Shown here in pieces: positions 4,023 through 26,692 of a stretch of DNA of 31,277 nt. The stretch is from positions 1 through 31,277 of IMG/VR virus record IMGVR_UViG_3300027754_000301; one strand, 5' to 3'. A model generated the notes under the pieces. That model saw only the letters and a program-made list of their open reading frames with translations. It had not been told where the DNA came from and did no database searches. This DNA comes from a virus. Both the position numbers and the translations under genes were made by a program. Positions within the stretch are counted from its first letter, which is position 1; every line of letters starts with the position of its first letter.

Positions 4023-4799
4023 TTACAGTTCTATCTTCCCTTTATGGATGGGACATCCACCAATCTCTTGGTCCCTTGTAAACTTGGCTGGGCGGAAAGA
4101 AAACTTCTTGGCCCACTCAAGCTTATCATACTCGCTCTGCGAAACCGTCTCGCAGATAATCTCGTATTCCTCATCAAACATGGGGATCAGGTAGCAAAGC
4201 ATTTCCCCTGCGGGAAAATCATACTTAACCATTGTTCCTTGGGCGGGTGCCCTGAACATCATGTTCACGTTCGAATGGTGCTGGTGGTAAAACTCGATCA
4301 CCCCCGGCATCGTCATCCAGTTATGCGACTTGTTGTGGTAGAACGCATCCGTCACGTAGAACTGGACATACCTCTCGGTGTAGATCAGCCAAGGGGAATG
4401 CGCCTTCCAGTTGATCCACTCCGGAGATACCATCCCCGGATACTGGACAGGAGAATGCTGGCTACCAGACTTCTTCTCTGTCGGAGAAACGCCGTGCGAC
4501 TTCCCATCCTGCATCGTGTTGATGGTCAACTCGCTCCACGCCGGAACGCAGATCCCCCGCTCCCAAAGCTTTTGAAGAGCATAACAGTGCTTGATTGTCC
4601 GAGCCATCTTGGCCGGTTGAAAACTGTGACGCTTCTTCCCATCCTTGTCCGTGACATGCTCCGGCCCATAAGCGGGCGTCTCACGCCACCAAGTAGGCGT
4701 TACCTTCGACAACCGGCTTATGGGAAACATCTCTGGAAGGGCCGGTATCGTTGTGAAACAACGAATGACAACCTTCTTCTTTCGGATCCAAGAGAACAT
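4023..4799 (-). CDS. Hypothetical phage early protein, 258 aa (first gene of leftward operon)
   Basis: The product is rich in aromatic residues and histidine. Notable segments are PTWWRETP (about 31-38), CYALQKLWERGICVPAWSEL (about 72-91), the HNKSHNW and EFYHQHHSNVN histidine clusters (about 154-178), and CPIHKG near the end. The spacing of Trp/His/Cys suggests a beta-sandwich or cupin-like fold with possible metal binding. No catalytic motif was recognised. GGAGG lies 12 bases before the ATG, slightly far for a ribosome site, and a candidate promoter lies further upstream. As the first gene after the divergent control region it is probably expressed early. Confidence 0.6.
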   Translation of the reverse strand: MFSWIRKKKVVIRCFTTIPALPEMFPISRLSKVTPTWWRETPAYGPEHVTDKDGKKRHSFQPAKMARTIKHCYALQKLWERGICVPAWSELTINTMQDGKSHGVSPTEKKSGSQHSPVQYPGMVSPEWINWKAHSPWLIYTERYVQFYVTDAFYHNKSHNWMTMPGVIEFYHQHHSNVNMMFRAPAQGTMVKYDFPAGEMLCYLIPMFDEEYEIICETVSQSEYDKLEWAKKFSFRPAKFTRDQEIGGCPIHKGKIEL

Positions 4800-4863: not shown

Positions 4864-4920
4864 CCGTGTTGATATAAAATAAAGATTATGTTAATACGGA
4901 TTGGAACGGAGAACAGTTCG

Positions 4921-6372
4921 ATGTCAGAAAGCTACGCCTTCAAACTTAAGCCCTTTGAGCATCAGGTTGAAGCCCTAAAAAAGTCCCTCAACAAGGTTGA
5001 CTACGCCCTGTTCTGCGAGATGGGTACGGGCAAATCGAAGATCCTGATCGACACCATAGGCTTCTTGTACGCCAAGAAACAACTGAACGGGGCGCTCATC
5101 ATCGCACCCAAGGGGGTCTACAAGAATTGGGAGCGGCTTGAGATCACCAAGCACATGCCAGACGTTATCTTAGAGACCACAGATATTGTCGGATGGTCCC
5201 CGTCGATGACGAAGAAGGCCCGTGGTCCGTTGGACGCGGCCCTCAAGCCAAGCGAGCGCCTGCGCATTGTGGTTATGAACATCGAAGCACTGTCCACGGA
5301 CAAGGGGACCGAGTACGCCCTGAAGTTTGTGAAGTCCTGCAAGTGCATGGTGGCTGTGGACGAAAGCACGACGATCAAGAACATCAAGGCCAAGCGCACC
5401 AAGAACATCATGAAGGTCGGCGGTCACGCAGCGTTCCGCCGCATCATGACGGGATCCCCGATCACGCAATCCCCGATGGATCTCTATAGCCAGTGTACCT
5501 TCTTGGGGCCTTGGCACCTCGGCCATCGGTCATTCTTCTCGTTCCAAAACAGATATGCGAGGATCGTCAGGCGCAACCTTGGGTCGCACAGCTTCAATCA
5601 GGTTGTCGGCTATCAGAACCTCGACGAGTTATCGAGCAAGCTGGACGGCTTCTCGTATCGCATCCTGAAGAAGGACTGCCTCGATCTCCCTGAGAAGGTC
5701 TACGTAAAGCGGTCGGTCGAGATGAACGAGTGGCAGGCACGGGCTTACAAACAGATGAAGGACAACGCCGTGACCTTCTTGGAACAGGGGGACATGGTGA
5801 CAGCGCAGAACGTACTGACGCAGATCCTACGCCTGCAACAGATTTGCTCGGGGTTTGTGAAGACGGATGACGGGTCGGTGGAGAAGTTCCCCACCAACAA
5901 GCTTGACGAGTTGATGGCGCTTCTGGAGGAAACCTCCGGGAAGGTAATCATTTGGGCGGTTTTTGTTCAGGATCTGAACAACATCCAAGCTGCGTTGGCG
6001 AAGGAGTATGGTCCGGGGTCCGTGGCCGTCTATGCCGGAAGCACCGGGGCCGAGGACCGACAGAAGATCGTGACAGATTTTCAGGAACCGAAATCGCCAT
6101 TACGGTTCTTTGTGGGTCAGTCCCGCACTGGCGGGTATGGGCTGACGCTAACTGAGGCCTCGACGGTCGTGTACTACACGAACAGCTTCGATTTGGAGGT
6201 TCGCATTCAGTCCGAGGACCGTGCCCACCGGATCGGCCAGAAGAACAACGTGACCTACATTGATCTGGTGACGGAAGGCACGGTCGAGGAGAAGATCCTC
6301 AAAGCCCTCCGGAACAAGATCAACATCGCGAGCGAGGTCTTGTCGGAGGGCTACAAGGAGTGGCTGATCTGA
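4921..6372 (+). CDS. SNF2-like superfamily 2 helicase, 483 aa
   Basis: A two-lobed SF2 ATPase is complete here: Q15 in FEHQ, the Walker A GTGKS at 35-39, the DEST box at 147-150, the TGSP segment typical of motif III, and motif VI QSEDRAHRIGQ at 430-440, the SNF2/RAD54 signature. Such enzymes translocate on double-stranded DNA and remodel protein-DNA complexes; in phages they are found with replication or recombination genes. An ATG at 4888 is in frame, but the one at 4921 has CGGAG nine bases upstream and fits the N-terminal helix better. This is the only rightward gene in the window. Its stop lies one base from the stop of the convergent polyvalent gene. Confidence 0.87.
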   Translation: MSESYAFKLKPFEHQVEALKKSLNKVDYALFCEMGTGKSKILIDTIGFLYAKKQLNGALIIAPKGVYKNWERLEITKHMPDVILETTDIVGWSPSMTKKARGPLDAALKPSERLRIVVMNIEALSTDKGTEYALKFVKSCKCMVAVDESTTIKNIKAKRTKNIMKVGGHAAFRRIMTGSPITQSPMDLYSQCTFLGPWHLGHRSFFSFQNRYARIVRRNLGSHSFNQVVGYQNLDELSSKLDGFSYRILKKDCLDLPEKVYVKRSVEMNEWQARAYKQMKDNAVTFLEQGDMVTAQNVLTQILRLQQICSGFVKTDDGSVEKFPTNKLDELMALLEETSGKVIIWAVFVQDLNNIQAALAKEYGPGSVAVYAGSTGAEDRQKIVTDFQEPKSPLRFFVGQSRTGGYGLTLTEASTVVYYTNSFDLEVRIQSEDRAHRIGQKNNVTYIDLVTEGTVEEKILKALRNKINIASEVLSEGYKEWLI

Positions 6373-6373: not shown

Positions 6374-9300
6374 TTACTTCTTGAGGCTGGTGGCACGGGC
6401 AGTTTCCTGCGCGTACTCCTGTAGCTTCTTGTAGTCGCTCTTGATCTTCTCGTTCAGGGAGTTGATCTCCTGCATACGCTTGTTGGGGACTAGGCTTTGA
6501 TCCTTTGCAACCTGTGCCCGCAGGCTTTCGGAGGCGCGGATCTGGGCGAGCATGTGGTTGATGTTCAGGGCGCGCTGGGTGACAGGATCCAGCGGGCTGA
6601 TGTTCGCACCAAACAAGCGGGCGGCGTTTGCCAGAAACTCAGGCTTTGGCTGACCACGCTTGTCGAGACCCGTCCCGTCTCCGAAGGCGTCGTTGTACAG
6701 GCGGGGGATTGCACCCGAGGCGTTCTGCGGATTGACGAGATCAATCGCCAGCATCGAGGGCAGCGTCTGGTTCCAGACGTAGGACATGAGCGCAAGCGCC
6801 TTGTTCTCGGGGGTCTGGCGAGGGTCCAAGATTTCCTTGTCGGTGAACGGATCCCGTCCTGTTGCGATTGCCGCAAGCACCGTGACGATGGGACCTGACG
6901 GGGTGATGAGTTTTGCTGCTTCCGCCGCACCCCCCTTGGGATCCTGACGAAGGGTCGCCTGTATGATCGGATCGGTAAACGCCGCCCACGGGAAGAAGGG
7001 GGCGAGATCAAAGTACTGCCAGCGTCCCTTCTCGTCCTTCCAAGGCATGATGAACAGGGATCCCTTGTTCCGGATGTACTCGGGCAGGCTCTTGCGAAGC
7101 GACTCGTAGTCGTCCGAGTCGATGTCGAGGACGGACATCGTGAGGTAGGGGATAGACAACGCCAGCGCGACATACGGAGCAAACCGAGTCGGGTGCTTGT
7201 AGGCCGTCTCCACCAGCTTCGGCAGCACCTTGTAGTAGTAGGTAACGAAGGGCAGACCGATGGGTGAGTTACGCAGGAAGCGGATGTTCGGGTTTACCTT
7301 CGTGTAATCGAACAGCGCATCGTTCGCAGCATCAACAGCCTGCGACGGCGTAGATCCCTTCTCCCGCTCATGGATGAACTGCACCATTTTGAACAGGACT
7401 TCCGTCTTCTGGTAGATGTCGGAGGCTGCACCGATAACATTGCCAGCAGCGATACGCATGGCGGCGAAGGCCCCCATCATATCTTTTCCGCCGCCCTTGC
7501 GAAGGTACGACTCAAGGGTGGAGCGCATCTGGATCAACTCAGCGGACGACATGGTTCCGCCAGTGATGCCGTACTTCTGCGCCTCCTGCCAGAACGTACC
7601 GTTCTCCGACACTTCCTTGGAAGCACGAAGAAGGAGCGGAGCGATCCGGTAGAATGGGACGCCGCCGAAGACGTTCAACGCGATGGCGTTCGACACCATG
7701 TTGCGGATCTGCGAAGGCACGTTGAGCGTGACCTTCATCATCTTCCAGAGCTGGTTTGCCTTGACGATGGTGCTTCGCTCGTCCCCAAGCAAAGCCTGCA
7801 TGAAGGGTTTCTCGCTGACAGGGATAGCAACAAAGGTTCCGATGATGTCGTCGTAGATACCCTTCTGGATCACAGCCCCGCGCAGCGCACCGTAGCGATG
7901 GCTGTCCGGAAGACGCTTGTAGTTTTCAGGAAGGATCTCTGACTGACTTCCAATGGCGCGGTCAGCAACATCCCGCATTTCGTTGGCACGATCAACCATC
8001 ATCTGCGCACCGGCAGGATCTGTTTTTTCTGTCAGCTCGGCCAAACTACGAAGAGTTTTTGCTTCATTGGCAAGCCAGTACGGAGTGACCTTATGGCCGC
8101 GATAATCAACAAGGCTGTTGTCCGCAATCCACTTTACGCCCGTCTGTTGCACAATGTTATCAAAGTAGTCCGCCATAGCCATGTCCTTTTGAGGACGTGA
8201 CAGAGCGACATACGAAAGGAAGGCGGGGTTCTTGATCTCACCCATAAGCTGACGCTCTTCGGGCGAGAAATCCTCGTTACGAAGTTTCAGATACTCGCGG
8301 GGGCTAATGCCCATGTTGCTCGTCTTAATCCCACGACCTGTCATTTCGTAATAGAGGTACATACGGGGGAGGTACTGATCGTAGTATTTGGCTAGGCTAT
8401 CGGCGGTAAGATAGCCGTTATCCACCATCTCCTTCGCGGTACGGTTGATCTCCTTCTTCACCTCCACCGCAGCGGCACGAACCTTCTCGTCAGTGATTGA
8501 CGATGGATCAGCGTTGGGTGTGGTGAGGTAGGCATACGTCTGCGCCTGAACCTCTTGGGTTCCCTTTGAGATGATTCCCGAAAGATCCTTCGCCTTCTGC
8601 GTAGACATGCCAATCTTGCCGAACAGAAGGTTTCTGAACTCTGACAGGATCGGAAACTTATCCACCGTGTACCATGTGTCGAAGAACTCGCGCACCGAGC
8701 CTGTGATCTTCGACCACCTCTCGGAGTTTAGTTGAGCGGTCGGGCCGCCGGGGAGATTGACTATCCCCTGCGGGTTTCCGTTTACGGCACTTGTAAGCGC
8801 AGCGTTCTGTGCGGAGATAGAGCCTGATCCAGACGCAGATGCCATGCTGCTGGATGCACCACTGAAGAAGTCGGACTGCTGATCCTGCGCCACGACCTCC
8901 GATATGTTGGAAGGACCACGAGCATCAAGAAACGCCTTCATGGCGTCCGTGGGCAGATACTTCCTTCCAGATACAGAGGAATAGAGCCCGCGCAACGCAG
9001 CTCCGATACGAGCAAAAAACTTCTCAACGACAGAGACGGGACGCTCCGAAGACGTAGCCCAACGAGCAACTTGGTCAGCGAACCATTCATTGAAAGACTT
9101 CCAGTACGGACGAAGCTCCTCCGACTTCATGTTTGGAGCCCTACGCGCAACATCCATCGCATCCATACGACCTGTCGTATGCGGCCTCAACGCTTCAATA
9201 TGTTGAGATGCAGATGTCCCTTTGTTGCTAACGGACCAGTTGTCAAATGCCGCCATCACGGCGCTCTTGGTGGCGCTGTCAGTGTTCTTCCACTCGTCCT

Positions 9301-12300
9301 TCTCAAGGATGTGGCCTATCTCATGCGCCAAGGTTTCAAGATTGGCAGAGGACCGTGGACGAATGCGCAAGGCGATATAGTGATCCCCATTGCTCAACCT
9401 ACGTGTTGTTCCGTAAGACTGTTGATCGAGTTGCGCAGACTCGATGGCTGCAAACGGCCCATCAAAACGTCCGTTTGCAGCGTCCTCTACAGTGGTGATG
9501 TACACACGGGAGTTAATCCCGAGCATATCCAAAAGACCCTTCGCAACCCCAAGGAGATCCTTCGGGAAGTTTTCAGAGGCCACTACCCTTTCACCGGACG
9601 AGAAGGGACCGTTTGGGTTTGCGTCGTTCCGAGCTTTTGCCTCGTCTATCAGACGCTCTCTTTGTTCGCGTAAAGCATCAAGCTCGCTCTTTGAAAAAAG
9701 AGCCCCCGTGTAAGAGGCGACATCATGCGTGGTGTGTTGACCACGCTTATTGAGGGCCATGTAGACAGGGCTTCCACTCATTATGGAATACCCACGAATG
9801 AGACCGGAGTTTTCCCCTGTGTAAACTATCCTGCCGGGAACCCTACCGTCGAAGGCCTTGCTCCAGTCGTACTCCTTCGCAGGTTTCTGAACAATGTCCT
9901 CCGCAGTAATAGGCTGCATGTTGTCGAGAGGTGCAAACTTCTCTGCGTTCTTCTTTCTTAGAAGCTCTTGTATCGCCAACCCTTCATTATTTCCAAGAAA
10001 CGAAGATTGCGTACTGGTTTTGTTAATGTCATGCCACCCCGGCACACCCATCGTAGTATAGGTGTCCATCCTTTGTATCTCAGACACCGTTCCATCCGAG
10101 AACGTGACGCGAACTATAAATCCGTCAACGGGGTTAAGCTTGACGCGCTTCCTCCCCGTAACGGTTATCGCCGCGAGAGGGGGTGCAGTTTCCACGGTCG
10201 GTGGTTGGATGTTCTCTCTGACAACAGGTGCCATCTCCCCAAAAAGACCGGGGCCTTCTTGAACTTCAACGCCGTGCGTGACCCTTATGGCCTCATCTAA
10301 AATATCGCTTGATGATTTCTTTGCGATACCGAGCTTCTCCGCGTTCTCTCCAATATCCTTCAAGGCCTCTGAAGCGTAGAAGTGAAGACCCCTTGATATT
10401 TTTTCACGACCAAGGGCTCTCGACTTCTCGCTGAAGAAGAGGCGCATAAACTTTTCTGTCATTGGGGGGATGGTATCGAACGCATCCCTTTGGGACAGAT
10501 AATTTTCTAGCTTAATGTTTTCGCTTCTCATTTCAGAGATTCGATTAATTGCATCAAGCAGGGGTTCAAAAGAAAACTCTTTTGATATGTTTCCCTTGTT
10601 CATCTCGACCCTGAGCTTTGCGAATATCGCTGCGTTGTCGAGCAAGGCGTTTGTTATGGACTTTATATTATCGTCTTGAACCTCAGACATGCGACGTATT
10701 GTTTCGGGATCCCCATACGCCTTGGCGAACACCGCATTTCTTATACGCTGAAGTCCTTCTTTACTGATGTTCCCGTCTTTGTCCAACAGCCTTCCACGAT
10801 TATCCTTAGAGAACTTACCAAGCATCTTCGCAAGGAAGTCAGGATGCGTGTAATCCCTCCCCGGAGGAATTGCATCGAGCATCTCCAGAGTTATCTTTCT
10901 GGAATCGCTGATAGCGATCTCGGTAGCCCCTCTCGAAAGTTTATCCTCGTCGTTCTGTTCCTCTGTAAAATCGGTAACTTGATCTTTTGACAAGGGTGTT
11001 GTGCGGCGTTGAACAAGAACGGGGTTCTTCATCCCCGAAATGTCAAACCCATTCTTTACCAACTCTTGCTTGTAGGCATCCGCAAAGGCTTGATCTTTTT
11101 TTCCATACACCGTGCGAAGCACCATGATGCGGCCATTGCCACTTTCGACATGACCGTTTTCATTTACGATTGGCGCTCCGCGATCTGCGGACGGATCAAA
11201 TATCAACCGCTCTGGGTTAAAATCCGTGTAGGCTGTCTCAGCAATCCAAGCGTCAGAAGCTTTTTGGTCCCTATCTCTTGGTTGCAGGGCGTCTTCGTAT
11301 CCGGGAACCTCGGACGAAACAACGTCCGACAGTTCAACAACCATTGGAGCAACGTCTATCTTCGGAACAGCCTTCATGCGCGTCATAAGAGTCTTCGTCT
11401 TATGCACTTCAGGTGTCGGGTTGAAAGGTGTAGGGGGTTTGACAAGAATGTTTTCTTGAGGAGCCAGAACCTCTTGTTCGGAAAGGGCCGGACTCACCAC
11501 CGGGGCCGTGGTCGGAGGAGCGACAACCGGGGCCGAACTGACAGAAGGTTTCTGTGCCTTGAGTGCTTCGATCAGTTGAAGGATTTCGGGAGCTTGTTGT
11601 TGACCCTGCGCGGGAGGCGCAGGGGCGGCCACTGGGGAGGCCACAGGAGGCTGAACAGACGGGGCCTGTCCTGTGAAGACTAGACCCAGCGGCCTCATCT
11701 GCGGAACGGTAATCGTGGATGCGCCGGGAGCCCTCCGCATCAGGCTGTCGATCCGGTTCTTTACCCGATTCCCTTCACGTTGGATTGTGGCATCCGTGAA
11801 ACCCTGACCAAGGAGCCACCTACGGTATTCCTCATGCGCCTTCGACTTGTTCTTACCCTGAACAATGTAGATGGCCTTGTCGGTATCGTTTTCAAAAACA
11901 AGCGGCGTCTTATCGTACCTCAGTTTTGCCCCCGCAAGACCCTGCGGAAGGGCAAGGGTCGTCGGAGCGAGGGGGGCCGAAGCCGGGGCTGCGGGTGCTA
12001 CCTGTGTTGGAGCAGGAGCAATAGGTGTGGCAGAGGTGGAGAAGAGATCCTTGGGCTGCGGAACCACAATAGGTGTCGGACCCGCCTGCGGTGCGGAAGA
12101 TGTAGCGCCAGCCTGTGCCGCAAGTTGCTGGGCTTGAACAGCCTGAGCAAACTGCTTCGCCGCGATGGGGTTTCCAACAACGGCGGCAGGGGGCTGTGCT
12201 AGTGTCTGGGCCACGGACCCCGAGGTCGCCAGAGGCCCACCCGTGGACGGAAGTCCGGGGACCGGGGGCGGCGCGGGAGGAACAACCGCTCCGGCGGCAG

Positions 12301-13354
12301 CGTTTGGAGGAGGGGGTGCGGTGGATGTACCTGTTGGTGGGATGATGGGCTCGGGGCGCTTGCCAAAGGCTCCGGAGGTAACACTACCGGCCAGAGCGCC
12401 TGCTCCACCCTCAAGCGCCATCTGTCCAGCAACACCCTGCCATGTCGGGCGGTCGATGCCTTCGCGTTGGATGGCTAGGTTCTGGGCAAGTTGTTCTTGT
12501 CCGCCCTGAAGAGCCTCAAGCGGAGCTTCTTCGGCAGCGCCCAAGGCTGTGCGCTTTAGGAGACTCTTCCCTGCTTCCTTTTCCCCGCCCATAATTGCCG
12601 TTTTACCGGCGGTTTTTCTGGCGACGTTGGTAAGGATCCGGTTAGCTCCTGTGACAGCATCAAGGGTTCCGAAACCAGCGCCTAAAAGGATCTGGTCAAG
12701 GTTCTCCCCGTTGTACTGCTGTGCGAGTTGAGCGCGCTTCTCAACTTCCTCTGGGGGAAGCTTGCCTGCAAGTTCCTGTTTTACCTCGTCGTAGATCGAG
12801 CCCTTGATGGACCCGGCACCTATCACTGCGCCAACACCAGCGGCAACAGCCGCACCAATAGCGGCTTCTGGGGCGAGGAGACCGGCGATGATTGCGGGAG
12901 CCGATGTTCCTAGGGCATTTGACACAAGATCAACGGGAGCAGTTCCGATTGCTCTTACAGCCGCAACAACCTGATCCCATACGCCCTTGTCCTTCGCATC
13001 GTTCATGATGCGAGAAATTTCTTGGGCGTTCTTCTGTGACTTGGCTGACAGAAGACCGCCAAGGTAATCCTCAACACCCCTGATGGTATTAGACGTATCA
13101 CTGCCTGCACCAAAGGCGTCCGAAATCATCCTGACGCCAGAGACTGCGCCCTTGCCAACCTGAAGCGGAACGTCGGCCACCTGACGGAGGGACGATTGTT
13201 TCTCCTCTGGCGGGGCAGGCTTGTTCTTTTTGCGAAGAATACCGGGATATACGTCCCTCTGAAACTTTAAGGAAACAAGCTCCGGAGGTGTCCCATCCGG
13301 AGCTTCAAGTTGATATGTCATCCCATCCGGAGCGTCCACCGCATAAATTGCCAT
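6374..13354 (-). CDS. Giant polyvalent virion/ejection protein with ParB-like, zincin and LPD38-like regions, 2,326 aa
   Basis: Regions in order: a short beta unit with APDG repeats (1-35); Ala/Gly hydrophobic helices (about 145-190); a Pro/Ala-rich linker (about 330-640) holding a small charged domain (about 470-545); a DdrB-like ParB domain with GNGR at 739-742; a metallopeptidase core HEIGH (1344-1348) with a possible third ligand in NEWFAD (E1423); a helical region resembling LPD38 (about 1700-2150); and a C-terminal coiled coil. Polyvalent proteins of phages and conjugative elements are thought to enter the host with the DNA and act on host defences or cell structures; the role here is inferred. 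AAGGA seven bases before the ATG supports the start. It is the last gene of the leftward virion block, where podoviruses encode internal ejection proteins. Confidence 0.82.
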   Translation of the reverse strand: MAIYAVDAPDGMTYQLEAPDGTPPELVSLKFQRDVYPGILRKKNKPAPPEEKQSSLRQVADVPLQVGKGAVSGVRMISDAFGAGSDTSNTIRGVEDYLGGLLSAKSQKNAQEISRIMNDAKDKGVWDQVVAAVRAIGTAPVDLVSNALGTSAPAIIAGLLAPEAAIGAAVAAGVGAVIGAGSIKGSIYDEVKQELAGKLPPEEVEKRAQLAQQYNGENLDQILLGAGFGTLDAVTGANRILTNVARKTAGKTAIMGGEKEAGKSLLKRTALGAAEEAPLEALQGGQEQLAQNLAIQREGIDRPTWQGVAGQMALEGGAGALAGSVTSGAFGKRPEPIIPPTGTSTAPPPPNAAAGAVVPPAPPPVPGLPSTGGPLATSGSVAQTLAQPPAAVVGNPIAAKQFAQAVQAQQLAAQAGATSSAPQAGPTPIVVPQPKDLFSTSATPIAPAPTQVAPAAPASAPLAPTTLALPQGLAGAKLRYDKTPLVFENDTDKAIYIVQGKNKSKAHEEYRRWLLGQGFTDATIQREGNRVKNRIDSLMRRAPGASTITVPQMRPLGLVFTGQAPSVQPPVASPVAAPAPPAQGQQQAPEILQLIEALKAQKPSVSSAPVVAPPTTAPVVSPALSEQEVLAPQENILVKPPTPFNPTPEVHKTKTLMTRMKAVPKIDVAPMVVELSDVVSSEVPGYEDALQPRDRDQKASDAWIAETAYTDFNPERLIFDPSADRGAPIVNENGHVESGNGRIMVLRTVYGKKDQAFADAYKQELVKNGFDISGMKNPVLVQRRTTPLSKDQVTDFTEEQNDEDKLSRGATEIAISDSRKITLEMLDAIPPGRDYTHPDFLAKMLGKFSKDNRGRLLDKDGNISKEGLQRIRNAVFAKAYGDPETIRRMSEVQDDNIKSITNALLDNAAIFAKLRVEMNKGNISKEFSFEPLLDAINRISEMRSENIKLENYLSQRDAFDTIPPMTEKFMRLFFSEKSRALGREKISRGLHFYASEALKDIGENAEKLGIAKKSSSDILDEAIRVTHGVEVQEGPGLFGEMAPVVRENIQPPTVETAPPLAAITVTGRKRVKLNPVDGFIVRVTFSDGTVSEIQRMDTYTTMGVPGWHDINKTSTQSSFLGNNEGLAIQELLRKKNAEKFAPLDNMQPITAEDIVQKPAKEYDWSKAFDGRVPGRIVYTGENSGLIRGYSIMSGSPVYMALNKRGQHTTHDVASYTGALFSKSELDALREQRERLIDEAKARNDANPNGPFSSGERVVASENFPKDLLGVAKGLLDMLGINSRVYITTVEDAANGRFDGPFAAIESAQLDQQSYGTTRRLSNGDHYIALRIRPRSSANLETLAHEIGHILEKDEWKNTDSATKSAVMAAFDNWSVSNKGTSASQHIEALRPHTTGRMDAMDVARRAPNMKSEELRPYWKSFNEWFADQVARWATSSERPVSVVEKFFARIGAALRGLYSSVSGRKYLPTDAMKAFLDARGPSNISEVVAQDQQSDFFSGASSSMASASGSGSISAQNAALTSAVNGNPQGIVNLPGGPTAQLNSERWSKITGSVREFFDTWYTVDKFPILSEFRNLLFGKIGMSTQKAKDLSGIISKGTQEVQAQTYAYLTTPNADPSSITDEKVRAAAVEVKKEINRTAKEMVDNGYLTADSLAKYYDQYLPRMYLYYEMTGRGIKTSNMGISPREYLKLRNEDFSPEERQLMGEIKNPAFLSYVALSRPQKDMAMADYFDNIVQQTGVKWIADNSLVDYRGHKVTPYWLANEAKTLRSLAELTEKTDPAGAQMMVDRANEMRDVADRAIGSQSEILPENYKRLPDSHRYGALRGAVIQKGIYDDIIGTFVAIPVSEKPFMQALLGDERSTIVKANQLWKMMKVTLNVPSQIRNMVSNAIALNVFGGVPFYRIAPLLLRASKEVSENGTFWQEAQKYGITGGTMSSAELIQMRSTLESYLRKGGGKDMMGAFAAMRIAAGNVIGAASDIYQKTEVLFKMVQFIHEREKGSTPSQAVDAANDALFDYTKVNPNIRFLRNSPIGLPFVTYYYKVLPKLVETAYKHPTRFAPYVALALSIPYLTMSVLDIDSDDYESLRKSLPEYIRNKGSLFIMPWKDEKGRWQYFDLAPFFPWAAFTDPIIQATLRQDPKGGAAEAAKLITPSGPIVTVLAAIATGRDPFTDKEILDPRQTPENKALALMSYVWNQTLPSMLAIDLVNPQNASGAIPRLYNDAFGDGTGLDKRGQPKPEFLANAARLFGANISPLDPVTQRALNINHMLAQIRASESLRAQVAKDQSLVPNKRMQEINSLNEKIKSDYKKLQEYAQETARATSLKK

Positions 13355-13356: not shown

Positions 13357-15096
13357 TTATTTCCTTGTGGGGCTTGAACTAAGGACTTCGGTTGGAAAAT
13401 CTAGGTTGGGGGATTTCATGCCCTTTGGCAATAGTCCTTGGGCCTGTTGTTTATACTCAAGCCTAAGACGATCAACTTCGGCTTGTTTCTGCGCAATGAG
13501 CTGCCCGTATTCTTTTTTCTTTTCATCAGGAAGCCCGGCGACATCCTGAAGCCTTTCAAGCGTAAGTATTTGATTTTCGTAGGAAATGACGAGGCCCTTG
13601 TTTGCATCCGCAACAGCTCTCAAGCCCGTTATGTCACGCGACAAGCCACGCTCGTCCCGCGCAGCAGCCCGTTCCTTAGCAGACTCTATCAACTTCTCCT
13701 TCGCCAACTCAAGCTCAAGGCCTTCCTTACGGAGCGAAGTATCTTCCGCACGACGGGTCTTCTCAAGATCCGCAAGGGTCGCAATACCGGCAGCACCACC
13801 AGCGCCAATGTTGGTAATTGCGCTGGAGCTTTTCCCCGCAGCCGCAGCAAAGCCCGCTTGCATCAACGAAAGAAGCTGGTTCTCACGGCGTTGCGCCTTG
13901 TTGGCCTCACGCTCCTGCTTCAACTCATCAATGCGAAGCGTAAGGCGCTTGCTGATACCGCTTTCCTCCTCCGGCTTCTTCGGAGGAAGAGGAGGGGCAG
14001 CAGCAGCGGCAGACGTTTCGGCAGTTGGTGCAGCCGCCGCAGGAGGCTTTGCTTCAACTGCCCCAACCCCCGCAGTGGGTTTTGTTTTTCCGCCAAAGAA
14101 GTAATCGTACACGGATGTTCCGATGCGCTTATACCTAGGATCCTGAAGATCCTTTGCCGTAGGAACGCTCGCAGACTCCTCCGTGAAACTGGCAAGGTTC
14201 TTTGCATCCACCTGTTCGGGAGTGAGGGTGGGAGTAGGAGGCTTCGGACGAAAGCCCGGAAACAAACCCGTCTGCGGGGGCAACGGCCTTTGCACGATAG
14301 CAGGAGCTTCTGGAGCAGCCTCCGGAGGATTGTCGAGGCGATCCCTCGACCTTTCTGCCATACCCCGAAGTTCGCCAAGCGAGGGAATACCCGCCGCTGT
14401 AGCCACTGCGGCAGGAGCAAGAACCCCCGCCATCGTCCTTCCAGCATTCGCCGCACTTCCAGTCATCTGGGAAGGTGCAGCGGGAGGAGAAGGGTAGCGC
14501 GCACCGCCCGCAGCCGGGGCGGCAACAACAGGGGGAGGGCCGCCCGCAGGCTGAGAGGCCAAGGTCCCCGGAACGAAGCGTGGGGGCAATGGTCCGGGGG
14601 CCGGGGTCGGGGTAAACCTCGGAGCCGCAGGCCTAAACCCGCCGCCCCGTGGACCGGGAACGGGAGGCGGAGAAGCCATCATCATTTCATTCGGATACGC
14701 CCGCAGAACCCTAGCCATCGCAGCGTTCGGATTGCCGGTCTCAGCAAGCGTAGCGTCATAGAGCGCCTGTACCTCGGGGGACTTGAAGGAGGTAGAAGGT
14801 TCCGAGAACTTAAAGTTAGGGGGGAGCCCCGAGGACTCGGACGGTGTATCCACGTAATCGTCCAAGACATCACCAACGTCCGTCGAAGGGGAGATGTTAT
14901 TATCACCACCCTTCTTGAAGTGCTTCACCCCATTGATAACCTGTCCACCCCCAGCATAGCCGGTTGTCTGAAACGCCATCTGCAAGGCGCGAGCGTTCTC
15001 ATCGGGGGACGCCACATTGGACGTTATCCCCGTCCCGTAGGACGATACGGGGGCTTGGTTGCGGAACATCGCACGGTCAAGGACAGGATCGTTCAT
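13357..15096 (-). CDS. Pro/Ala-rich putative virion protein with C-terminal coiled coil, 579 aa
   Basis: The N-terminal part carries glycine motifs (YAGGGQV, HFKKGGDN at about 48-65). A long Pro/Ala/Gly-rich region (about 140-380) follows, then a charged helical region (about 385-560) with strong coiled-coil character (RKEGLELELAKEKLIESAKE). No enzyme motif was seen. The gene lies between the 357-aa and 2,326-aa genes with gaps of three and two bases, so it belongs to the late virion operon. A structural or ejected internal protein is the best guess. The high GC content gives a long open antisense frame, which is not a gene. Confidence 0.6.
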   Translation of the reverse strand: MNDPVLDRAMFRNQAPVSSYGTGITSNVASPDENARALQMAFQTTGYAGGGQVINGVKHFKKGGDNNISPSTDVGDVLDDYVDTPSESSGLPPNFKFSEPSTSFKSPEVQALYDATLAETGNPNAAMARVLRAYPNEMMMASPPPVPGPRGGGFRPAAPRFTPTPAPGPLPPRFVPGTLASQPAGGPPPVVAAPAAGGARYPSPPAAPSQMTGSAANAGRTMAGVLAPAAVATAAGIPSLGELRGMAERSRDRLDNPPEAAPEAPAIVQRPLPPQTGLFPGFRPKPPTPTLTPEQVDAKNLASFTEESASVPTAKDLQDPRYKRIGTSVYDYFFGGKTKPTAGVGAVEAKPPAAAAPTAETSAAAAAPPLPPKKPEEESGISKRLTLRIDELKQEREANKAQRRENQLLSLMQAGFAAAAGKSSSAITNIGAGGAAGIATLADLEKTRRAEDTSLRKEGLELELAKEKLIESAKERAAARDERGLSRDITGLRAVADANKGLVISYENQILTLERLQDVAGLPDEKKKEYGQLIAQKQAEVDRLRLEYKQQAQGLLPKGMKSPNLDFPTEVLSSSPTRK

Positions 15097-15099
15097 CGT

Positions 15100-16173
15100 T
15101 TAACCCCCACCAACCGCAGATGCAGCACCCGACTTACCACCGAACAAGTTATACGCCGCCAAACCCGCAATGCCCAGACCACCAGCCTGAGAAAGGATGG
15201 ATGCAGACGGGGAAGTCGCCTGACTGATCGTCTGTTGCGAGGACGGCGCACCCTTGTAGATATCACTGAGGAACGAGATCCGTTGGAACGGCTCGTATTC
15301 ATACTGAAGCTTATTGGCCCTGTCAGCATCCTGAACCTTCTGTTGGAAGGCTTGGTTCTGCGAGCCCGTGTTGTACAGGAACGAAGCATCCCCCTGACCA
15401 AGGCCCGAGGTCAACTGTCCAAGGTTCGCGGTCGATGTTCCAAGGCCCCCGAGCCCCGCCGAAGCGCCCTGCGTCAACTGTCCGCCAGAGATATTGGCCT
15501 GACCGAGCGCGGTCCCCGCACCAAGGGCCGTGTTCCCCGCCTGCTGGAGACGCGACTGCTGGTTCTGGAAGGCGTTCATCGCCGCCGTCTGAGCCTGACT
15601 GTAGTTCGTGGAGTAGTCCTCAAAGATCCGCTTGCTCTGAATGTCCGCCAGATTGCGGGCAAGCTCCGAGGTTTGGACGCCCTGACGACTGCCACCAAAC
15701 GCGCCAGACTTCACACCCTGCGACTGGTTCTGAGCCTGTTGGATTGCAGCCTGACGCTGCATCTCCTTTGTGGCCTCGTTGGTGACAGCCTGCTGGTAGG
15801 GGTTCATAAAGTTCTGGGCGGAGTTCGGATTGTAGGCCTGCGCGCCCTGCAATGACAGATCGACCGCAGCGTTACCGCCCGTTCTGACAGCCTCAATGCC
15901 CGCTGCCCCATAGGACGGTACAGCCCCGTAGCCCTGCGCCGCCTGACCATAGAGCGAGGACGCCGTGTTCAGAAACGGCTGGTAGGATCCTATGCCCTGC
16001 GCCGCCAGTTCTGTTGCCTTGACTTGCTCGGGCGTCTGACCGGCAACAGTTATGTCCGGAATATCTACACGGATCTTTGACCGTTGTTGCGCCGCATCTA
16101 AAAGCCCAAGCTTATAGGCTTCAATATCTGGGGCTTCGCGGACGATCTGTTCTGTTGTTGTTACATCAGCCAT
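15100..16173 (-). CDS. Ala/Gln/Gly-rich putative internal virion protein, 357 aa
   Basis: The sequence is low in complexity and rich in Gln, Ala, Gly and Asn. Its middle is long and helical (QQAVTNEATKEMQRQAAIQQ, about 126-145, onward) and its C-terminus is Gly/Ala-rich and hydrophobic (ILSQAGGLGIAGLAAYNLF), which could insert into a membrane. This composition recalls DNA-injection or internal core proteins of podoviruses. The resemblance is of style, not demonstrable homology. Its ATG is three bases from the stop of the 531-aa gene. Confidence 0.55.
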   Translation of the reverse strand: MADVTTTEQIVREAPDIEAYKLGLLDAAQQRSKIRVDIPDITVAGQTPEQVKATELAAQGIGSYQPFLNTASSLYGQAAQGYGAVPSYGAAGIEAVRTGGNAAVDLSLQGAQAYNPNSAQNFMNPYQQAVTNEATKEMQRQAAIQQAQNQSQGVKSGAFGGSRQGVQTSELARNLADIQSKRIFEDYSTNYSQAQTAAMNAFQNQQSRLQQAGNTALGAGTALGQANISGGQLTQGASAGLGGLGTSTANLGQLTSGLGQGDASFLYNTGSQNQAFQQKVQDADRANKLQYEYEPFQRISFLSDIYKGAPSSQQTISQATSPSASILSQAGGLGIAGLAAYNLFGGKSGAASAVGGG

Positions 16174-16175
16174 GA

Positions 16176-17771
16176 TTAAGCCATCCGCTCATATTTGTGC
16201 ATCATCTCGTAAAGTTTACGAGCGCCCTTCATTCTGTCACCACCGCCAGCGCCTCTGACAGCTTTCGCCGTCATGACAAATTCGCCGTCACTGAGACGCG
16301 CAGGGATTGAGTCGCTGGTTCCCGTGCCGGGTCCGTCAATCTTCCCACCACGAGCGGCTACGCCGCCCATCGCCATCCTGATGGCACCCAAGCCTCCGGG
16401 CTGGTAGGGGATGACAGGGGAGGTAGCGGGCCGCTTAATGGCAGTAAAATCATTGATATTGAAGGCGTAGCGACCGGGGTTCGAAGCCAGAAGATCGTTG
16501 CCTGTCTGGCGCGGAACAAGAGGACCGGGGGTAGATCCTTTTCCCCCCATCGAGCTTGCGATCAAGGCTCCGCCGACGCCAGCGATACCAACCGAAGTCA
16601 GCGGGTTCGCCTTAATCCACGCCCCGGTCTTGTCTACCAGACCGCCGAGACCGCTGAGAGCGCCGCCCGATGATACAGGTGCTTTCAATGTGTCGCCAGC
16701 AAACCCGCTTGAAACACCCTTCTGGAAACTCTCAAAACCCTTGTCTCCAGTTGGAGCCTCATAAAGAGCGCCGGGTCGGTTTAGATCCCCTTGGATGCTG
16801 GGGGATCCCGCGCCAGTAGCTGTCGGGACCATCCCCTCCGGAGTAGCCGGTGTACTCGGGCCACCCATCATGGACTCAAGGAAGCCCTTCTGCGCCCCGC
16901 CTCCACCAACGGTATTCAAGCCACCGCCCATCGAACCGGGGAGGGCGTTCTCGACGCCGCCCATGAAGGTGCCGCCCTGCATCATGCTACTGACGCCTGA
17001 CGCCGCAAATCCGATAGCCCCCGCAAACAGCGCGCTCTTCATGGCGCTGGCAGGCGATGCACCGCCGATTAGAGATCCCACACCAGCGCCCGCCGCAGCC
17101 CCAAGTGGACCACCGACCATGTTTCCGAGGATGGGCAGAACGATAGGTGCAGCCGATTTGAAGAAGCTACCAATGGACGAGAAGAACCCGTACTCCGGAA
17201 GACCCGTCTCCGGATTGATGCTGCCCTCACCACCACGGCTCTTCAGAAGCATCGCCTCTTCAGGCGTGATATGCGCCAGCATCGTATCGTCGTTGCGGCC
17301 AGCATTCTTCACCTTCTGCGCGGCTTCATGCAGGCCGACAATCCCGCCCTTCTTGTAGCCGGGGGCCGTGGGCATCGGAGCGGGCATATTCGGCCCACCG
17401 CCCTCGGGCTTCTTCATCATGGCCTGATGGACCATGCCTTCAATGATGGCGAACAGGCGGTCGTCGTACTCCTCCGGAAGATCACCCTCGTTGATGAGCT
17501 TGGAGGAATAGAGCTTCTTGACGACTTCCTCGTACCGATCCTTGTTCTTCTTCAGGTATTCCAGAAGAGACCCGAAGGCCATGAGCTTGGGAACGGGGAA
17601 GGTGTCAAGCTCCTCGGCAAGCCCCTGAAGTGCCTGCTTCTCCTCGGATGTCAGACCCGCATAGGCGTCACCGATGGCCGTGCTGAGTTTCGGCACATCC
17701 CGTTCCGTGAACTTGGAACGGCTGAGAGCCTTTTGAATACCGGGATCGCGAAGGAGATCAGTGCCCTGCAT
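16176..17771 (-). CDS. Gly-rich putative virion protein with SDSIPARLSDGEFV motif, 531 aa
   Basis: The N-terminus is helical and charged (1-125). Two motif blocks stand out: YKKGGIV followed by DDTMLAHITPEEAMLL and INPETGLPEYGF (about 139-195), and near the C-terminus GGKIDGPGTGTSDSIPAR plus LSDGEFVM (about 475-500). The second block also occurs near the ends of some tape-measure and other virion proteins. Between them is a Gly/Ala/Met-rich hydrophobic stretch (about 200-290) with likely membrane-active helices. The protein is far too short and glycine-rich for a siphovirus tape measure. An internal or ejected virion role is inferred. AGGAA six bases before the ATG supports the start. Confidence 0.6.
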   Translation of the reverse strand: MQGTDLLRDPGIQKALSRSKFTERDVPKLSTAIGDAYAGLTSEEKQALQGLAEELDTFPVPKLMAFGSLLEYLKKNKDRYEEVVKKLYSSKLINEGDLPEEYDDRLFAIIEGMVHQAMMKKPEGGGPNMPAPMPTAPGYKKGGIVGLHEAAQKVKNAGRNDDTMLAHITPEEAMLLKSRGGEGSINPETGLPEYGFFSSIGSFFKSAAPIVLPILGNMVGGPLGAAAGAGVGSLIGGASPASAMKSALFAGAIGFAASGVSSMMQGGTFMGGVENALPGSMGGGLNTVGGGGAQKGFLESMMGGPSTPATPEGMVPTATGAGSPSIQGDLNRPGALYEAPTGDKGFESFQKGVSSGFAGDTLKAPVSSGGALSGLGGLVDKTGAWIKANPLTSVGIAGVGGALIASSMGGKGSTPGPLVPRQTGNDLLASNPGRYAFNINDFTAIKRPATSPVIPYQPGGLGAIRMAMGGVAARGGKIDGPGTGTSDSIPARLSDGEFVMTAKAVRGAGGGDRMKGARKLYEMMHKYERMA

Positions 17772-17860: not shown

Positions 17861-18154
17861 TCATGTCGTCACCGTGACAGATCCGACAGACCCGGAAGAT
17901 GATATCCCCTTGACGTAGGGGCTGTAGATGACAGAAACCCGCAGCGCCCCGCCAACCTCGAACATCGTTCCCGGCTCAAGATTGTAGTCGTTGTTCGCCA
18001 AGTTCGTCAGGACAATCGTGGTCTGCCGACCTTCGCCCGGTGCCTGAACGACGTTGATTAGGGTGTCCAGCGCCCTCACAAGATCGGCAAAATACTTCCG
18101 GTCATAGTCCGCAGGCGGACTTGTGAACCTCGGAAAGACAAGCCTGACATCCAT
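17861..18154 (-). CDS. Hypothetical virion-associated protein, 97 aa
   Basis: The first half is helical and charged (YDRKYFADLVRALDTLINVV, about 17-36). The second half is beta-rich (NNDYNLEPGTMFEVGGALRV) and ends SSGSVGSVTVTT, a style like the neighbouring fibre proteins. Its ATG overlaps the TAA of the nozzle gene (TAATG), so its output is coupled to the nozzle. It may be a small tail-completion protein. No family was recognised. Confidence 0.6.
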   Translation of the reverse strand: MDVRLVFPRFTSPPADYDRKYFADLVRALDTLINVVQAPGEGRQTTIVLTNLANNDYNLEPGTMFEVGGALRVSVIYSPYVKGISSSGSVGSVTVTT

Positions 18155-20004
18155 TAGCGTTTACCATCGACTTGCGTCTCAATGCGAGGCGACCCAAGAC
18201 TCCAGCGAGTTCCGACCTTGTTGCTTTCCACCCTTAGGATGACAGACCGGCCCCTGAGGCGAACGTCGCAGACTTGAGTATACTGGTCCACGGGAACCGT
18301 CGATGTCCTGACAACAGCCGAGTCAGACCCGCTTTGGTAGTTCGAGCCGGGGTAGTTCTGCGTCTTCATGATGAAGTCAACCGTCGGGCTGTTCGTGGCG
18401 TTAAAGAACGAAACGTCCGGGATCACACGGCGCACGAACGAGAACTTGTCACCGTCTCCGATGTCGATGGGCGCACTCTCGATGTAGGAGTTGAGGGGCG
18501 TAGCCGGGGTCGTGCTGCCGTCGTCCGTCCCATACTCCTGATAGTACAGGTATTGGTCCGTGGACGCCGCGAGCGGGTACGGGCGAATGCCGCTGTCAAT
18601 CCATGCTGTACGAGCCATCGACCCATGCGACCAAACCCTGTCAGCGAAGTTATAGGTCACATACAGGTCGTTCTCTTCCGATTCAGCGGAAGGATAAAAC
18701 CAAGTGATCTCGCTGTATTCAGCCGTCACCGCCGCAAAAACCTTATCCGACTGTGTGCTGTTGTAGTTGTCAAAGATGTAGTCTTGAAGCGGGCATACGA
18801 GCGGGGCCGTCTGACCGGCATAGACATAAAAGCTGCTGCTCCCCATCCAGTAGATCGTATCGTCCACCGTCGCGAAGCTGTTGTACCCGTTGACGTTTAT
18901 GCCAGCAGCGATCTGCGTAATACCAAAGGTGTAGGGAGGGCCAACGAACTGGAGCGAATAGGCAGCGATGTCAGTGAAGATCACGATTTCGCGTTTCGTC
19001 TCCACGCCGCGAATGATCTTTGATCCGGACCCAAGACGCAGATCACCCGCCGTATTCGTCGGCAGGGAAGTCCACGTGAACGGATCCTCTTGGCTTGAGA
19101 ACCGGATGATGAGGGGATCCTGCGCGGTAACGCCACCATAGTTTGCACCAAGCGCGATCACATGGCGATCTCTGTCAGACACAATAACCTGAAGAGCCAA
19201 GGTCGGTGTTTGAGTGTCCGTGGACAACGACGCAAGCGTCACGCCCCGAGTGAATGACGGGTTTGTCCCATACCAGTAATAGACGCCGCCGTTCCTGACG
19301 TTGAAAACCAAATCCTCACCGTAGTTGTCCTGCGCCCACAGGCGCAGTGTGTTGCTGGCGGAAGAAGTTGTACCACTTCCCCACGTACCACGGCCCCATG
19401 TCCCCGAACCCCAGCCGTTGCCGCCGATCTGCGTGTTGAGGCCCGTGTTGATCTGATACGCCGCTACGACGGCAGACCCGCCCTGCGCAGTGTCAGACGC
19501 GTTTGCGGTGGCGCTGACAGTTATCTTGTAGTTATTGAGATCGACGTAAGTAATTTGAAACTCTTTGTTCAAAACCGTTGCGGTGATGGTTCCGCCGAGT
19601 GATGTAGCACCGCTAAAAGTCACATAGTCGTTGTTAACGCAGCCGTGTGCGACTTCGTATACAGCGATGACGCTGGATCCGGTGGTGGCGGTGAAGGGGT
19701 TATTGAGCGTGACGGTCTTGCGGATAGGTGTAATGTCGTGGTTGGTGCCACCCTCTTCCACGTAGTATTTGAGGTTCGTCCCAAAAGCCAGAAGGTTGGA
19801 CCCAATGAGCGTCACCCAATTCAGCATCGACCGACAGATGCCGAGGAATGGATTACCAGAGGCGTATTTTATCCATCCACCAATGGATTGCGGAAAACCC
19901 AAACGGAAACGGATCAGGTTGCTGTCACGCCAGCCGCCTTCATTTGTATAGCCCGTTACATCGCGAATGACACCGGGGCGGAACTGAAGTTTTTGAAGCG
20001 CCAT
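18154..20004 (-). CDS. Beta-propeller tail nozzle/hub protein (P22 gp10/T7 gp12-like), 616 aa
   Basis: The protein begins RPGVIRDVTGYTNEGGWRDS and then shows repeated beta-blades: IVSDRDRHVIALG, DPLIIRFSSQEDPFTWTSL, IVIFTDIAAYSLQFVG, DDTIYWMGSSSFYVY and ITWFYPSAESEENDLYV. This blade pattern is typical of podovirus tail nozzle or hub proteins, which extend the tail tube beyond the adaptor. A Gly/Trp-rich insertion (GWGSGTWGRGTWGSG) lies at about 193-210. A longer frame with a TTG start at 20067 overlaps the holin; the ATG at 20004 has AAGG nine bases upstream and a natural N-terminus, so it was chosen. It lies four bases from the holin stop. Confidence 0.72.
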   Translation of the reverse strand: MALQKLQFRPGVIRDVTGYTNEGGWRDSNLIRFRLGFPQSIGGWIKYASGNPFLGICRSMLNWVTLIGSNLLAFGTNLKYYVEEGGTNHDITPIRKTVTLNNPFTATTGSSVIAVYEVAHGCVNNDYVTFSGATSLGGTITATVLNKEFQITYVDLNNYKITVSATANASDTAQGGSAVVAAYQINTGLNTQIGGNGWGSGTWGRGTWGSGTTSSASNTLRLWAQDNYGEDLVFNVRNGGVYYWYGTNPSFTRGVTLASLSTDTQTPTLALQVIVSDRDRHVIALGANYGGVTAQDPLIIRFSSQEDPFTWTSLPTNTAGDLRLGSGSKIIRGVETKREIVIFTDIAAYSLQFVGPPYTFGITQIAAGINVNGYNSFATVDDTIYWMGSSSFYVYAGQTAPLVCPLQDYIFDNYNSTQSDKVFAAVTAEYSEITWFYPSAESEENDLYVTYNFADRVWSHGSMARTAWIDSGIRPYPLAASTDQYLYYQEYGTDDGSTTPATPLNSYIESAPIDIGDGDKFSFVRRVIPDVSFFNATNSPTVDFIMKTQNYPGSNYQSGSDSAVVRTSTVPVDQYTQVCDVRLRGRSVILRVESNKVGTRWSLGSPRIETQVDGKR

Positions 20005-20008
20005 TGCA

Positions 20009-20182
20009 TTAGCCCTTGTTCTTCCACTCACGATAGGCAAGTGCGATACGGAAAATAACAAGGACAAGGCCGCAGACGGTGATGCCTAGGCCCGCCCACT
20101 CATTCAAGTGGACCGCCCACCACGGAAGCGTTATGGCCCCCGTGGCGATTGCACCATCGACCACGACCTTGGTGTCGTTCAT
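20009..20182 (-). CDS. T7-like class II holin, 57 aa
   Basis: A 57-codon frame begins MNDTKVVVDGAIATGAITLP and has a hydrophobic helix ITVCGLVLVIFRIALAY (about 34-50) followed by the basic tail REWKNKG. Just before the helix is LNEWAG, matching the position of LNEW in T7 gp17.5, whose layout (soluble N-terminus, LNEW, one long helix, lysine-rich tail) is the same. Holins form the membrane lesions that time lysis. AGGGG lies seven bases before the ATG. No endolysin or spanin is adjacent, which is odd for a lysis gene. Confidence 0.72.
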   Translation of the reverse strand: MNDTKVVVDGAIATGAITLPWWAVHLNEWAGLGITVCGLVLVIFRIALAYREWKNKG

Positions 20183-23035: not shown

Positions 23036-23045
23036 CACGTATCTC

Positions 23046-24014
23046 CTAAGCGGCTATCGGGGTCCATCCGGGATTTTGGGATGGAGATACAGGCGTCCAA
23101 GCGGGCGACTGAGCAGGGGATACCTGAGTCCAAACTGGAACCTGAGAAGGCACCGCCTGCGACCAAGCCGGGGTCTGAGACGGGGAGACTGGCGTCCAAT
23201 TCGGGTTTTGGTCAGGGACAATCTGCCCCCATACAAGAACGACCCCAACATACCCTGTCGCGCTGACTCCTGCAACATACACATTAGTGTCGAGAGTTAT
23301 CGCGACGGATCCAACAGCACCCGTGGCCGAGACACCAACAGCAAAGACATCTATTGGGAACTGTACCGCTACCGACCCAACATCGCCCGTGGCGGAAACG
23401 CCAGTAGGCGAGACATTGGCATCTGCGGTAACATCTACGGACCCCACACTTCCCGTAGCAGAGACACCTGTCAGATCGACGTTGGCATCCGCCGTAACGG
23501 TAGCAGTTCCAATGTCACCAGTGGCAGAGACACCTGTCAGATCGACGTTGGCATCCGCCGTAATGTCTACCGACCCAATTCCGCCAGTGGCAGAGACGCC
23601 TGTTAGATCGACATTGGCATCGTAGACAAGGGTTACATCGCCAACGGAGCCTGTAGCAGACAACCCCGTGACACTGACATTGGCGTCGTAAACAAGGGTG
23701 ACGGTTCCTACGGACCCAGTGGCAGAGACTCCCGTCGTATCAACATTTGCGTCTGCCGTAACCTCTGCGGTCCCCACGGACCCGGTGGCAGAGACTCCCG
23801 TCAGATCGACATTGGCGTCTGCAACAACGGAGGCAGACCCTACGGAACCTGTCGCCTCAACTCCAGTGACGCTTACGTTCGCATCCGCCGTGATCGCGAC
23901 AGATCCCGTGGAACCTGTCGCAACGCCAATCGCTATAGAGCCTGTTCCAAACGCTCCCAGACCCCATCCTTGGGATCTGTTCCACCCTTCAAAGGCTACG
24001 ATTGCGTCAGCCAT
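23046..24014 (-). CDS. Repeat protein with ten 22-residue beta repeats and a Trp/Pro repeat tail, 322 aa
   Basis: After a 31-residue leader (MADAIVAFEGWNRSQGWGLG) come ten units of 22 residues with the pattern ATGSVGSVTVTADANVDLTGVS (residues 32-251, shown here as its separate blocks ATGSVGSV, TADANVDL and TGVS), then part of an eleventh. The last ~57 residues are five 10-11-residue units of the type VSPSQTPAWTP. No catalytic motif was seen. The alternating Val/Gly/Thr suggests a beta-solenoid or stacked beta arches, and the position before the tail fibre suggests a virion appendage. The function is unknown. Confidence 0.75.
   Translation of the reverse strand: MADAIVAFEGWNRSQGWGLGAFGTGSIAIGVATGSTGSVAITADANVSVTGVEATGSVGSASVVADANVDLTGVSATGSVGTAEVTADANVDTTGVSATGSVGTVTLVYDANVSVTGLSATGSVGDVTLVYDANVDLTGVSATGGIGSVDITADANVDLTGVSATGDIGTATVTADANVDLTGVSATGSVGSVDVTADANVSPTGVSATGDVGSVAVQFPIDVFAVGVSATGAVGSVAITLDTNVYVAGVSATGYVGVVLVWGQIVPDQNPNWTPVSPSQTPAWSQAVPSQVPVWTQVSPAQSPAWTPVSPSQNPGWTPIAA
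23049..23225 (-). repeat. 33-bp coding repeats for an 11-residue Trp/Pro motif
   Basis: Five units of the type P-x-Q-x-P-x-W-(T/S)-x-(V/A)-x lie at the C-terminus, for example VSPAQSPAWTP and VSPSQNPGWTP. Eleven residues is half of the 22-residue unit in the same protein. Confidence 0.85.
23226..23921 (-). repeat. 66-bp coding repeat array (ten full units plus a partial)
   Basis: Each 66-base unit encodes 22 residues beginning ATG(S/D/A)(V/I)G and ending GV(S/E). Units differ mainly at positions 4, 7-12 and 17-18. Units 9 and 10 (near the C-terminal end) are the most diverged, with FPIDV and LDTNV in place of ADANV. Confidence 0.9.
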
Positions 24015-26400: not shown

Positions 26401-26691
26401 TTAGCACACCGAGGTAGACTTAGTACGAGCCATACCCTGACCCTTGGCCGTCACCATACCGCCGCCAGCCTTGCAGACCATGCCGCCTTCAGCATACCCC
26501 GAAACCATGCCACCGTGGTTGAGGCCCTTCATGGACTTCTGGGTGTCGTGCTTCGTGTCAGCCTCGGAGGACTCCCACTCCTTCATAGACATGCCGCGCT
26601 TTTTGGCAAGCTTCTTGTCCTGTGAAACGTCCTCCTTGGACCCCTCCCACATGCCAATATTCATTAGTCCTGTTGGTGATTTACCGGCCAT
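26401..26691 (-). CDS. Small Gly/Met-rich protein with GGM motifs, 96 aa
   Basis: The first half is charged (KEDVSQDKKLAKKRGMSMKE). The second half has NHGGMVSGYAEGGMVCKAGG, GMVTAKGQGMAR and ends STSVC: three GGMV units in about 25 residues. There is no enzyme motif. It follows the 115-aa protein, which has a similar GGMV and GQGKMR tail, so the two are probably paralogous small virion-block proteins. Confidence 0.6.
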   Translation of the reverse strand: MAGKSPTGLMNIGMWEGSKEDVSQDKKLAKKRGMSMKEWESSEADTKHDTQKSMKGLNHGGMVSGYAEGGMVCKAGGGMVTAKGQGMARTKSTSVC

Positions 26692-26692
26692 A

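Follow-up and report, generated by a model that had tools for sequence, protein, structure and literature searches.

A putative polyvalent ejection protein with a DdrB-type ParB domain and an exchangeable zincin in an uncultured podovirus-like phage

The window analysed here is the whole 31,277-nucleotide stretch of IMG/VR virus record IMGVR_UViG_3300027754_000301, the minus strand of which encodes, at 6374..13354, a polyvalent ejection-type protein of 2,326 amino acids (aa) and 253 kDa. As a whole, the data are best explained if this product is a polyvalent ejection protein and its source an uncultured, podovirus-like phage, a reading to which a probability of about 0.6 is assigned; that the product is an ejected polyvalent protein is, judging from sequence, quite likely. 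Several disparate domains from the list of Iyer et al. (2017) are joined in this one polypeptide, and its gene lies beside late/virion genes. The protein is read from a single open reading frame (ORF), whose ATG start is preceded by an AAGGA ribosome-binding sequence. Furthermore, a second strain, L001, which has 31 mismatches over 22.4 kb (99.86% identity), encodes a protein that is 100% identical, and this rules out faulty assembly as the source of the architecture.

A first-pass annotation of this DNA had described a polyvalent protein, and the motif positions which it gave (GNGR at 739-742, HEIGH at 1344-1348 and NEWFAD at 1422-1427) are all exact. The coexistence of a ddrB-ParB domain, found with Pfam, and a zincin, found by alignment and AlphaFold2 modelling, in one ORF bears the description out. 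Two features were overlooked by it: a conserved N-terminal module that is probably related to the N-terminal domain of the N4 virion RNA polymerase (vRNAP), and a zincin cassette that differs by exchange from one sister phage to another.

The zincin cassette and its exchange among relatives

The zincin cassette of the window, here called zincin A, covers aa 1150-1500 (8855..9907; this and all other features of the protein lie on the minus strand). When viral contigs were scanned with this region, 185 relatives were obtained, 80 of which were kept, and 45 diverse ones, sharing 32-42% identity with the window zincin, were aligned. Residues H1344, E1345, G1347, H1348, R1390, Y1417, E1423, W1424, A1426, D1427 and Q1428 are invariant in that alignment; they include both His and the Glu of HEIGH (aa 1344-1348, 9311..9325) and the E, W, A and D of NEWFAD (aa 1422-1427, 9074..9091), where E1423 is the predicted third zinc ligand. 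When the 2,326-aa protein is shuffled, an HExxH motif turns up by chance about 0.8% of the time. The AlphaFold2 model built from the 45 sequences reached a mean predicted local distance difference test (pLDDT) score of 89 and a predicted template modelling (pTM) score of 0.87, with the HEXXH and the downstream Glu both placed on helices. In VIA-align, the top rows were mostly zincins of the lethal-factor/Pro-Pro-endopeptidase type, followed by IrrE and ACE2, with Z scores of 6.5-8 over model residues ~100-334; some rows were related folds that lack a zinc site. The best viral structure matches carry the name 'Large polyvalent protein associated domain', and members of the family weakly match the peptidase families M78, M10 and M48, while neither MPTase-PolyVal nor any curated Pfam peptidase family matched the window zincin above its cut-off. 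The zincin proposed in the first-pass annotation is thus well supported as a modelled fold, and from the conservation of its residues it is very probably an active enzyme.

Close relatives suggest that this cassette is exchanged. The sisters P0002, L088, L092 and L093 have the same ParB domain and C-terminus, and the same N-terminus where the contig reaches it, with a zincin of another clade in place: the sister clade reads HE[FM]SHPI ... RS[FY].EWVAE, against HEIGH ... KSFNEWFAD in the window. At the DNA level, blastn between the window and L002 finds no match from 8789 to 10073, between flanking blocks which are 86% and 78% identical. Because the two clades are recognisable as relatives when their profiles are compared (97.7%), the cassette is taken to have been replaced by a distant homologue; rapid divergence at the site is less likely from the sequences compared, since a 40-aa segment is missing and the edges are sharp. 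Most of the neighbouring genes of the window and L002 encode proteins that are 74-98% identical, the exceptions being the fibre (48%), the product of 23046-24014 (67%), the 579-aa protein, with a partial match, and 4023-4799, with no match. The tail fibre gene (20792-23038), 48% identical while most neighbours are at 82-97%, indicates that a host-range exchange also separates the two phages that differ in their zincin. In a more distant relative, L146, the N-terminal module and a C-terminus as in the window are combined with an HEAFH motif and an ART-PolyVal domain.

Relatives of the window zincin were not found in the phage record collection (E 1e-5), in which the ParB and C-terminal parts do have matches. 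Among GTDB contigs, relatives were found in one contig of a Methylophilaceae metagenome-assembled genome and in one Acinetobacter contig. In the latter (L152, 6848-19719), the zincin cassette adjoins a methylase-helicase region and another HEVGGH motif across two overlapping ORFs, which probably represent a frameshifted polyvalent gene; a lytic-transglycosylase-like ORF lies upstream of them.

The N-terminal module and its similarity to the N4 virion RNA polymerase

The first 340 residues (12335..13354) form a candidate delivery module, delimited by family conservation and by similarity to N4, which consists of a beta-beta-alpha leader (aa 1-45) and an all-helical remainder. Sixty viral loci have this module, N-terminally placed in large ORFs, and across 33 diverse proteins its conservation is 41-77%. 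The virion RNA polymerase family phrog_2206 was matched by 20 of these 33 (best E 1e-6), and HHalign against a profile of seven Schitoviridae vRNAP N-terminal domains gave a probability of 67% (E 5e-5), with column-shuffled, reversed and unrelated alignments remaining at or below 0.7%. The motif at aa 274-323 (12386..12535), running from EEAPLEALQGGQEQLAQNLAIQREG to GVAGQMALEGGAGALAG, is shared with N4 vRNAP at aa ~388-437; in the hhalign comparison with N4 gp50 this region is 31% identical over 59 columns, and the core common to both families reads E..E..Q...QLAQN.A.Q....GV..Q..L..L.G. A plain hidden Markov model (HMM) of the N4 N-terminal domain gave no match among the large ORFs, which leaves the PHROG matches and the profile-profile comparison as the basis of the link.

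For N4 vRNAP, the N-terminal domain has been predicted to cross the membrane, and it was incorporated into nanodiscs (PMC12633501). In a Kyte-Doolittle scan (threshold 1.6), a hydrophobic segment was found in the module of P0001 and of L105 and in none of the five other relatives scanned, so a classical transmembrane helix is no clear family feature. Delivery in the manner of N4 gp50 is, on this profile similarity, somewhat favoured. No T7-type RNA polymerase domain was found in the Pfam search of the protein, whose strong whole-protein PHROG matches fall in the ParB region. The module was not found in the scanned GTDB contigs, in a pattern-limited search.

The ParB domain, the linker and the C-terminal region

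The ParB-like domain of the first-pass annotation is of the DdrB type: a profile search assigns aa 665-784 (11003..11362) to PF18763 with an E-value of 8.7e-26 and a score of 90.9 bits, the curated cut-off being 27.6. By BLASTP, aa 684-983 are 26% identical to P1 DdrB (E 5e-25), an alignment reaching about 200 aa beyond the ParB domain, over a helical extension, and pairing the sequence VESGNGR, which includes GNGR (aa 739-742, 11129..11140), as well as a subsequent Tyr. In our own reading of the sequences, the Arg of this motif and that Tyr would be the active-site residues meant by Iyer et al. for the ddrB-ParB family.

Between the N-terminal module and the ParB domain lies a linker (aa 334-650, 11405..12355) delimited by its composition, with 17.7% Pro. 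Across the family the enrichment is only mild (median 7.4% vs 4.5%), and because of this the idea that a Pro-Pro-endopeptidase-like zincin might cut a Pro-rich linker stays a speculation.

The C-terminal region (aa 1518-2326, 6377..8803) is conserved in relatives, its identity being 73-84% in the four sisters, 48% in L146 and 24% in the podovirus MW202615. The LPD38-like region suggested for it in the first-pass annotation (aa ~1834-2184, 6803..7855) was recovered as a remote match and not as a Pfam assignment. A six-sequence alignment of the region, compared by hhalign with the C-terminal region of LPD38 proteins, gave 81% probability (E 1.2e-5) over 318 columns, with shuffled or reversed controls at or below 0.6%; LPD38 by itself gave only 9%, and with Pfam LPD38 (PF18857) the window protein has no match at all up to E 1. 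In the relatives, the Pfam family matches, near the C-terminus where located, 13 of the 19 that share the zincin or the backbone and 14 of the 20 that share the N-terminal module. The label LPD38-like is accordingly reasonable for this sequence but unproven.

Position at the end of an ejection cassette

The placing of the gene at the end of a podovirus virion block, where an ejection protein is expected, is confirmed by the ejection and structural genes upstream of it, all on the minus strand. Directly upstream lies a gene for a 579-aa protein (13357..15096), which holds the same place in the sisters and is weakly detected in L082 and L083. It is preceded by a 357-aa gene (15100..16173) matching the PHROG 'DNA ejection protein' (phrog_4287, E 2.2e-5), by a 531-aa gene (16176..17771) for a podovirus-type internal protein, whose C-terminal GPGTGTSDSIPARLSDGEFVM motif is otherwise known from tape-measure proteins, and by the gene of a 637-aa virion structural protein (18154..20067; phrog_3287, E 6.7e-62). 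Across 56 loci with the N-terminal module, duplicates included, homologues of these three are found upstream in 48, 34 and 46 cases, respectively. Since the 357-aa and 637-aa proteins have homologues encoded before it in most loci, the polyvalent gene is regarded as the standing last gene of the ejection cassette. Fibre, tail and capsid genes also lie upstream.

On the opposite strand, a stand-alone helicase gene (4888-6372, plus strand; phrog_62, E 6.6e-124) converges with the polyvalent gene, the two ends lying 1 nucleotide apart, and a helicase homologue also follows the polyvalent gene in L002, L092, L093/L095 and L146. The motifs KKGG and AGGG recur in five structural or ejection ORFs (26401-27520 and 13357-17771), and the translation of 23046-24014 consists of tandem repeats (DANVDLTGVSATGSVG and variants).

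Proposed role and alternative explanations

In the proposed mechanism, the polyvalent protein would be packaged in the head and then follow the smaller ejection proteins through the tail, leaving last. The N-terminal module would enter or anchor in the inner membrane, like the N4 vRNAP N-terminal domain, and the payload would reach the cytoplasm, where the ParB domain may act on DNA, either the entering phage DNA or that of the host, as proposed for P1 DdrB. The zincin, in turn, would most likely process the polypeptide itself or its delivery partners, freeing the payload from the delivery module either while the head matures or following entry. Self-processing as the main job of the zincin is held at slightly less than even odds. 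It is preferred over a purely host-directed protease because an HExxH motif is never missing from the complete, distinct proteins with the N-terminal module (38/38, with 0.24 expected), while the other payload domains vary, and this constant pairing with the delivery module suggests that the zincin has its place in delivery or maturation.

For the metallopeptidases (MPTases) of polyvalent proteins, Iyer et al. have put forward three roles: self-processing, a processing step in the head, or an action on host targets. A host-directed effector, cutting for instance a defence or regulatory protein of the host after injection and exchanged as hosts differ, is a serious if less probable explanation of the zincin. 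It would account for sisters with well-conserved flanks holding different clades at the same site, and for the parallel exchange of the tail fibre, a host-range gene, between the window and L002; it also suits the 49 complete distinct proteins in which zincin A is joined to differing N- and C-terminal partners, only 3 of which carry this N-terminal module. An HExxH motif in all 38 proteins would, nevertheless, be unusual for a dispensable effector. It is rather improbable that the zincin and the ParB domain serve as structural folding or packaging units with enzymatic activity secondary: P1 DdrB is listed as aiding the addition of DarB to the capsid (PMC9024508) and the MPTase-bearing region of N4 is required for encapsidation (PMC5512222), both of which favour such a role, whereas the strict invariance of the catalytic residues in 45 zincins so distant from that of the window speaks against it. 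Finally, the protein might not be injected at all, being a late intracellular enzyme merely adjoining the structural genes. ParB and zincin domains do occur in non-virion proteins as well, which counts in favour of this explanation, but given the ejection cassette in which the gene stands it is considered very improbable.

Several observations weigh against the ejected, self-processing protein preferred here. The Z scores of the zincin are of a size at which VIA-align gives a warning about common arrangements, and below E 0.001 no PDB match for the model was returned by Foldseek. The AlphaFold2 model of the N-terminal module (pLDDT 64) is helical and of low confidence past aa 45, too poor for a fold search. 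The N4 link amounts to a profile match of 67% probability spanning ~110 columns, and a search of 50,697 phage records gave no relative of the module (E 1e-5). Moreover, N4 vRNAP is packaged uncleaved despite its MPTase (PMC5512222), which means that such a domain need not entail processing, and diversifying selection on a host-directed protease would also account for sisters with different zincin clades.

Polyvalent proteins have so far been described mainly through domain lists. Here, close relatives reveal which parts are constant (the delivery module, a zincin and the C-terminal region) and which are exchanged (the zincin clade and the other payload domains), a pattern which makes the role of polyvalent-protein zincins directly testable by cassette exchange or inactivation, and which suggests that podoviral payload injection uses a module shared with the N4 virion RNA polymerase. 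More tentatively, these proteins could represent a widespread podoviral delivery system, in which an N4-gp50-type injection module is obligatorily coupled to a protease, with protease clades and effector cassettes exchangeable between constant ends. The effector cassettes of such a system might comprise ParB, ADP-ribosyltransferase, acetyltransferase and ATPase domains, with the protease freeing or licensing whichever payload is loaded; this reading as a whole is considered less likely than not.

Comparison with known systems

In the first-pass annotation the novelty of finding these domains together at the position of an ejection protein was overstated, since P1 DdrB, JC1 gp69 and N4 vRNAP are precedents. 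P1 DdrB, which joins a ddrB-ParB domain to a zincin and occurs in virions (PMC5512222, PMC9024508), where it was detected with 59.5% coverage (PMC9024508), has both domains in the same order as the window protein, with the motif HELGH at 872. Unlike the latter, it comes from a myovirus, has 995 aa against 2,326, and does not match the N-terminal module or the C-terminal region; between the two zincins, BLASTP aligns nothing past the motif. According to Iyer et al., P1 DdrB is processed before packaging and N4 vRNAP is not.

N4 ejects its giant vRNAP, which contains an MPTase (PMC5512222). Like this protein, gp50 of the Schitoviridae phage N4, the window protein is a giant encoded after smaller ejection proteins (gp52 and gp51 in N4), with a probably related N-terminal module; in contrast, it has a ParB domain where N4 has the central RNA polymerase, and the similarity of the modules is weak.

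In the podovirus JC1, gp69 is a DarB-like protein of 4,515 aa with a C-terminal LPD38, encoded by the last gene of the virion block and seen in virions by mass spectrometry with 51 unique peptides (PMC9144972). The podovirus type, the gene position and, if its remote match holds, the LPD38-type C-terminus are shared by the window protein with JC1 gp69 and Bcep22-like phages, whereas gp69 carries a lysozyme-like and methylase-helicase payload with no ddrB-ParB reported and is nearly twice the size. A further parallel, in the C-terminal region, is UOF79314 (2,166 aa) of MW202615 (Podoviridae sp. ctwe8250), homologous there at 24% (E 1e-39) with an HELGH motif before it, and likewise encoded by the last gene before oppositely directed ones; its N-terminal half is different, and a search with P0001 gave no ddrB-ParB match.

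In the literature search, neither a podovirus ejection protein with a metallopeptidase nor a large polyvalent protein linked to podoviral ejection was found. The polyvalent kind is therefore already known, with P1 DdrB (ParB and zincin) and the LPD38 virion protein of JC1, while new, as far as the literature searched goes, and in phages without N-terminal-module relatives in the searched isolate collection, are the domain combination and the pairing of a delivery module with an exchangeable zincin.
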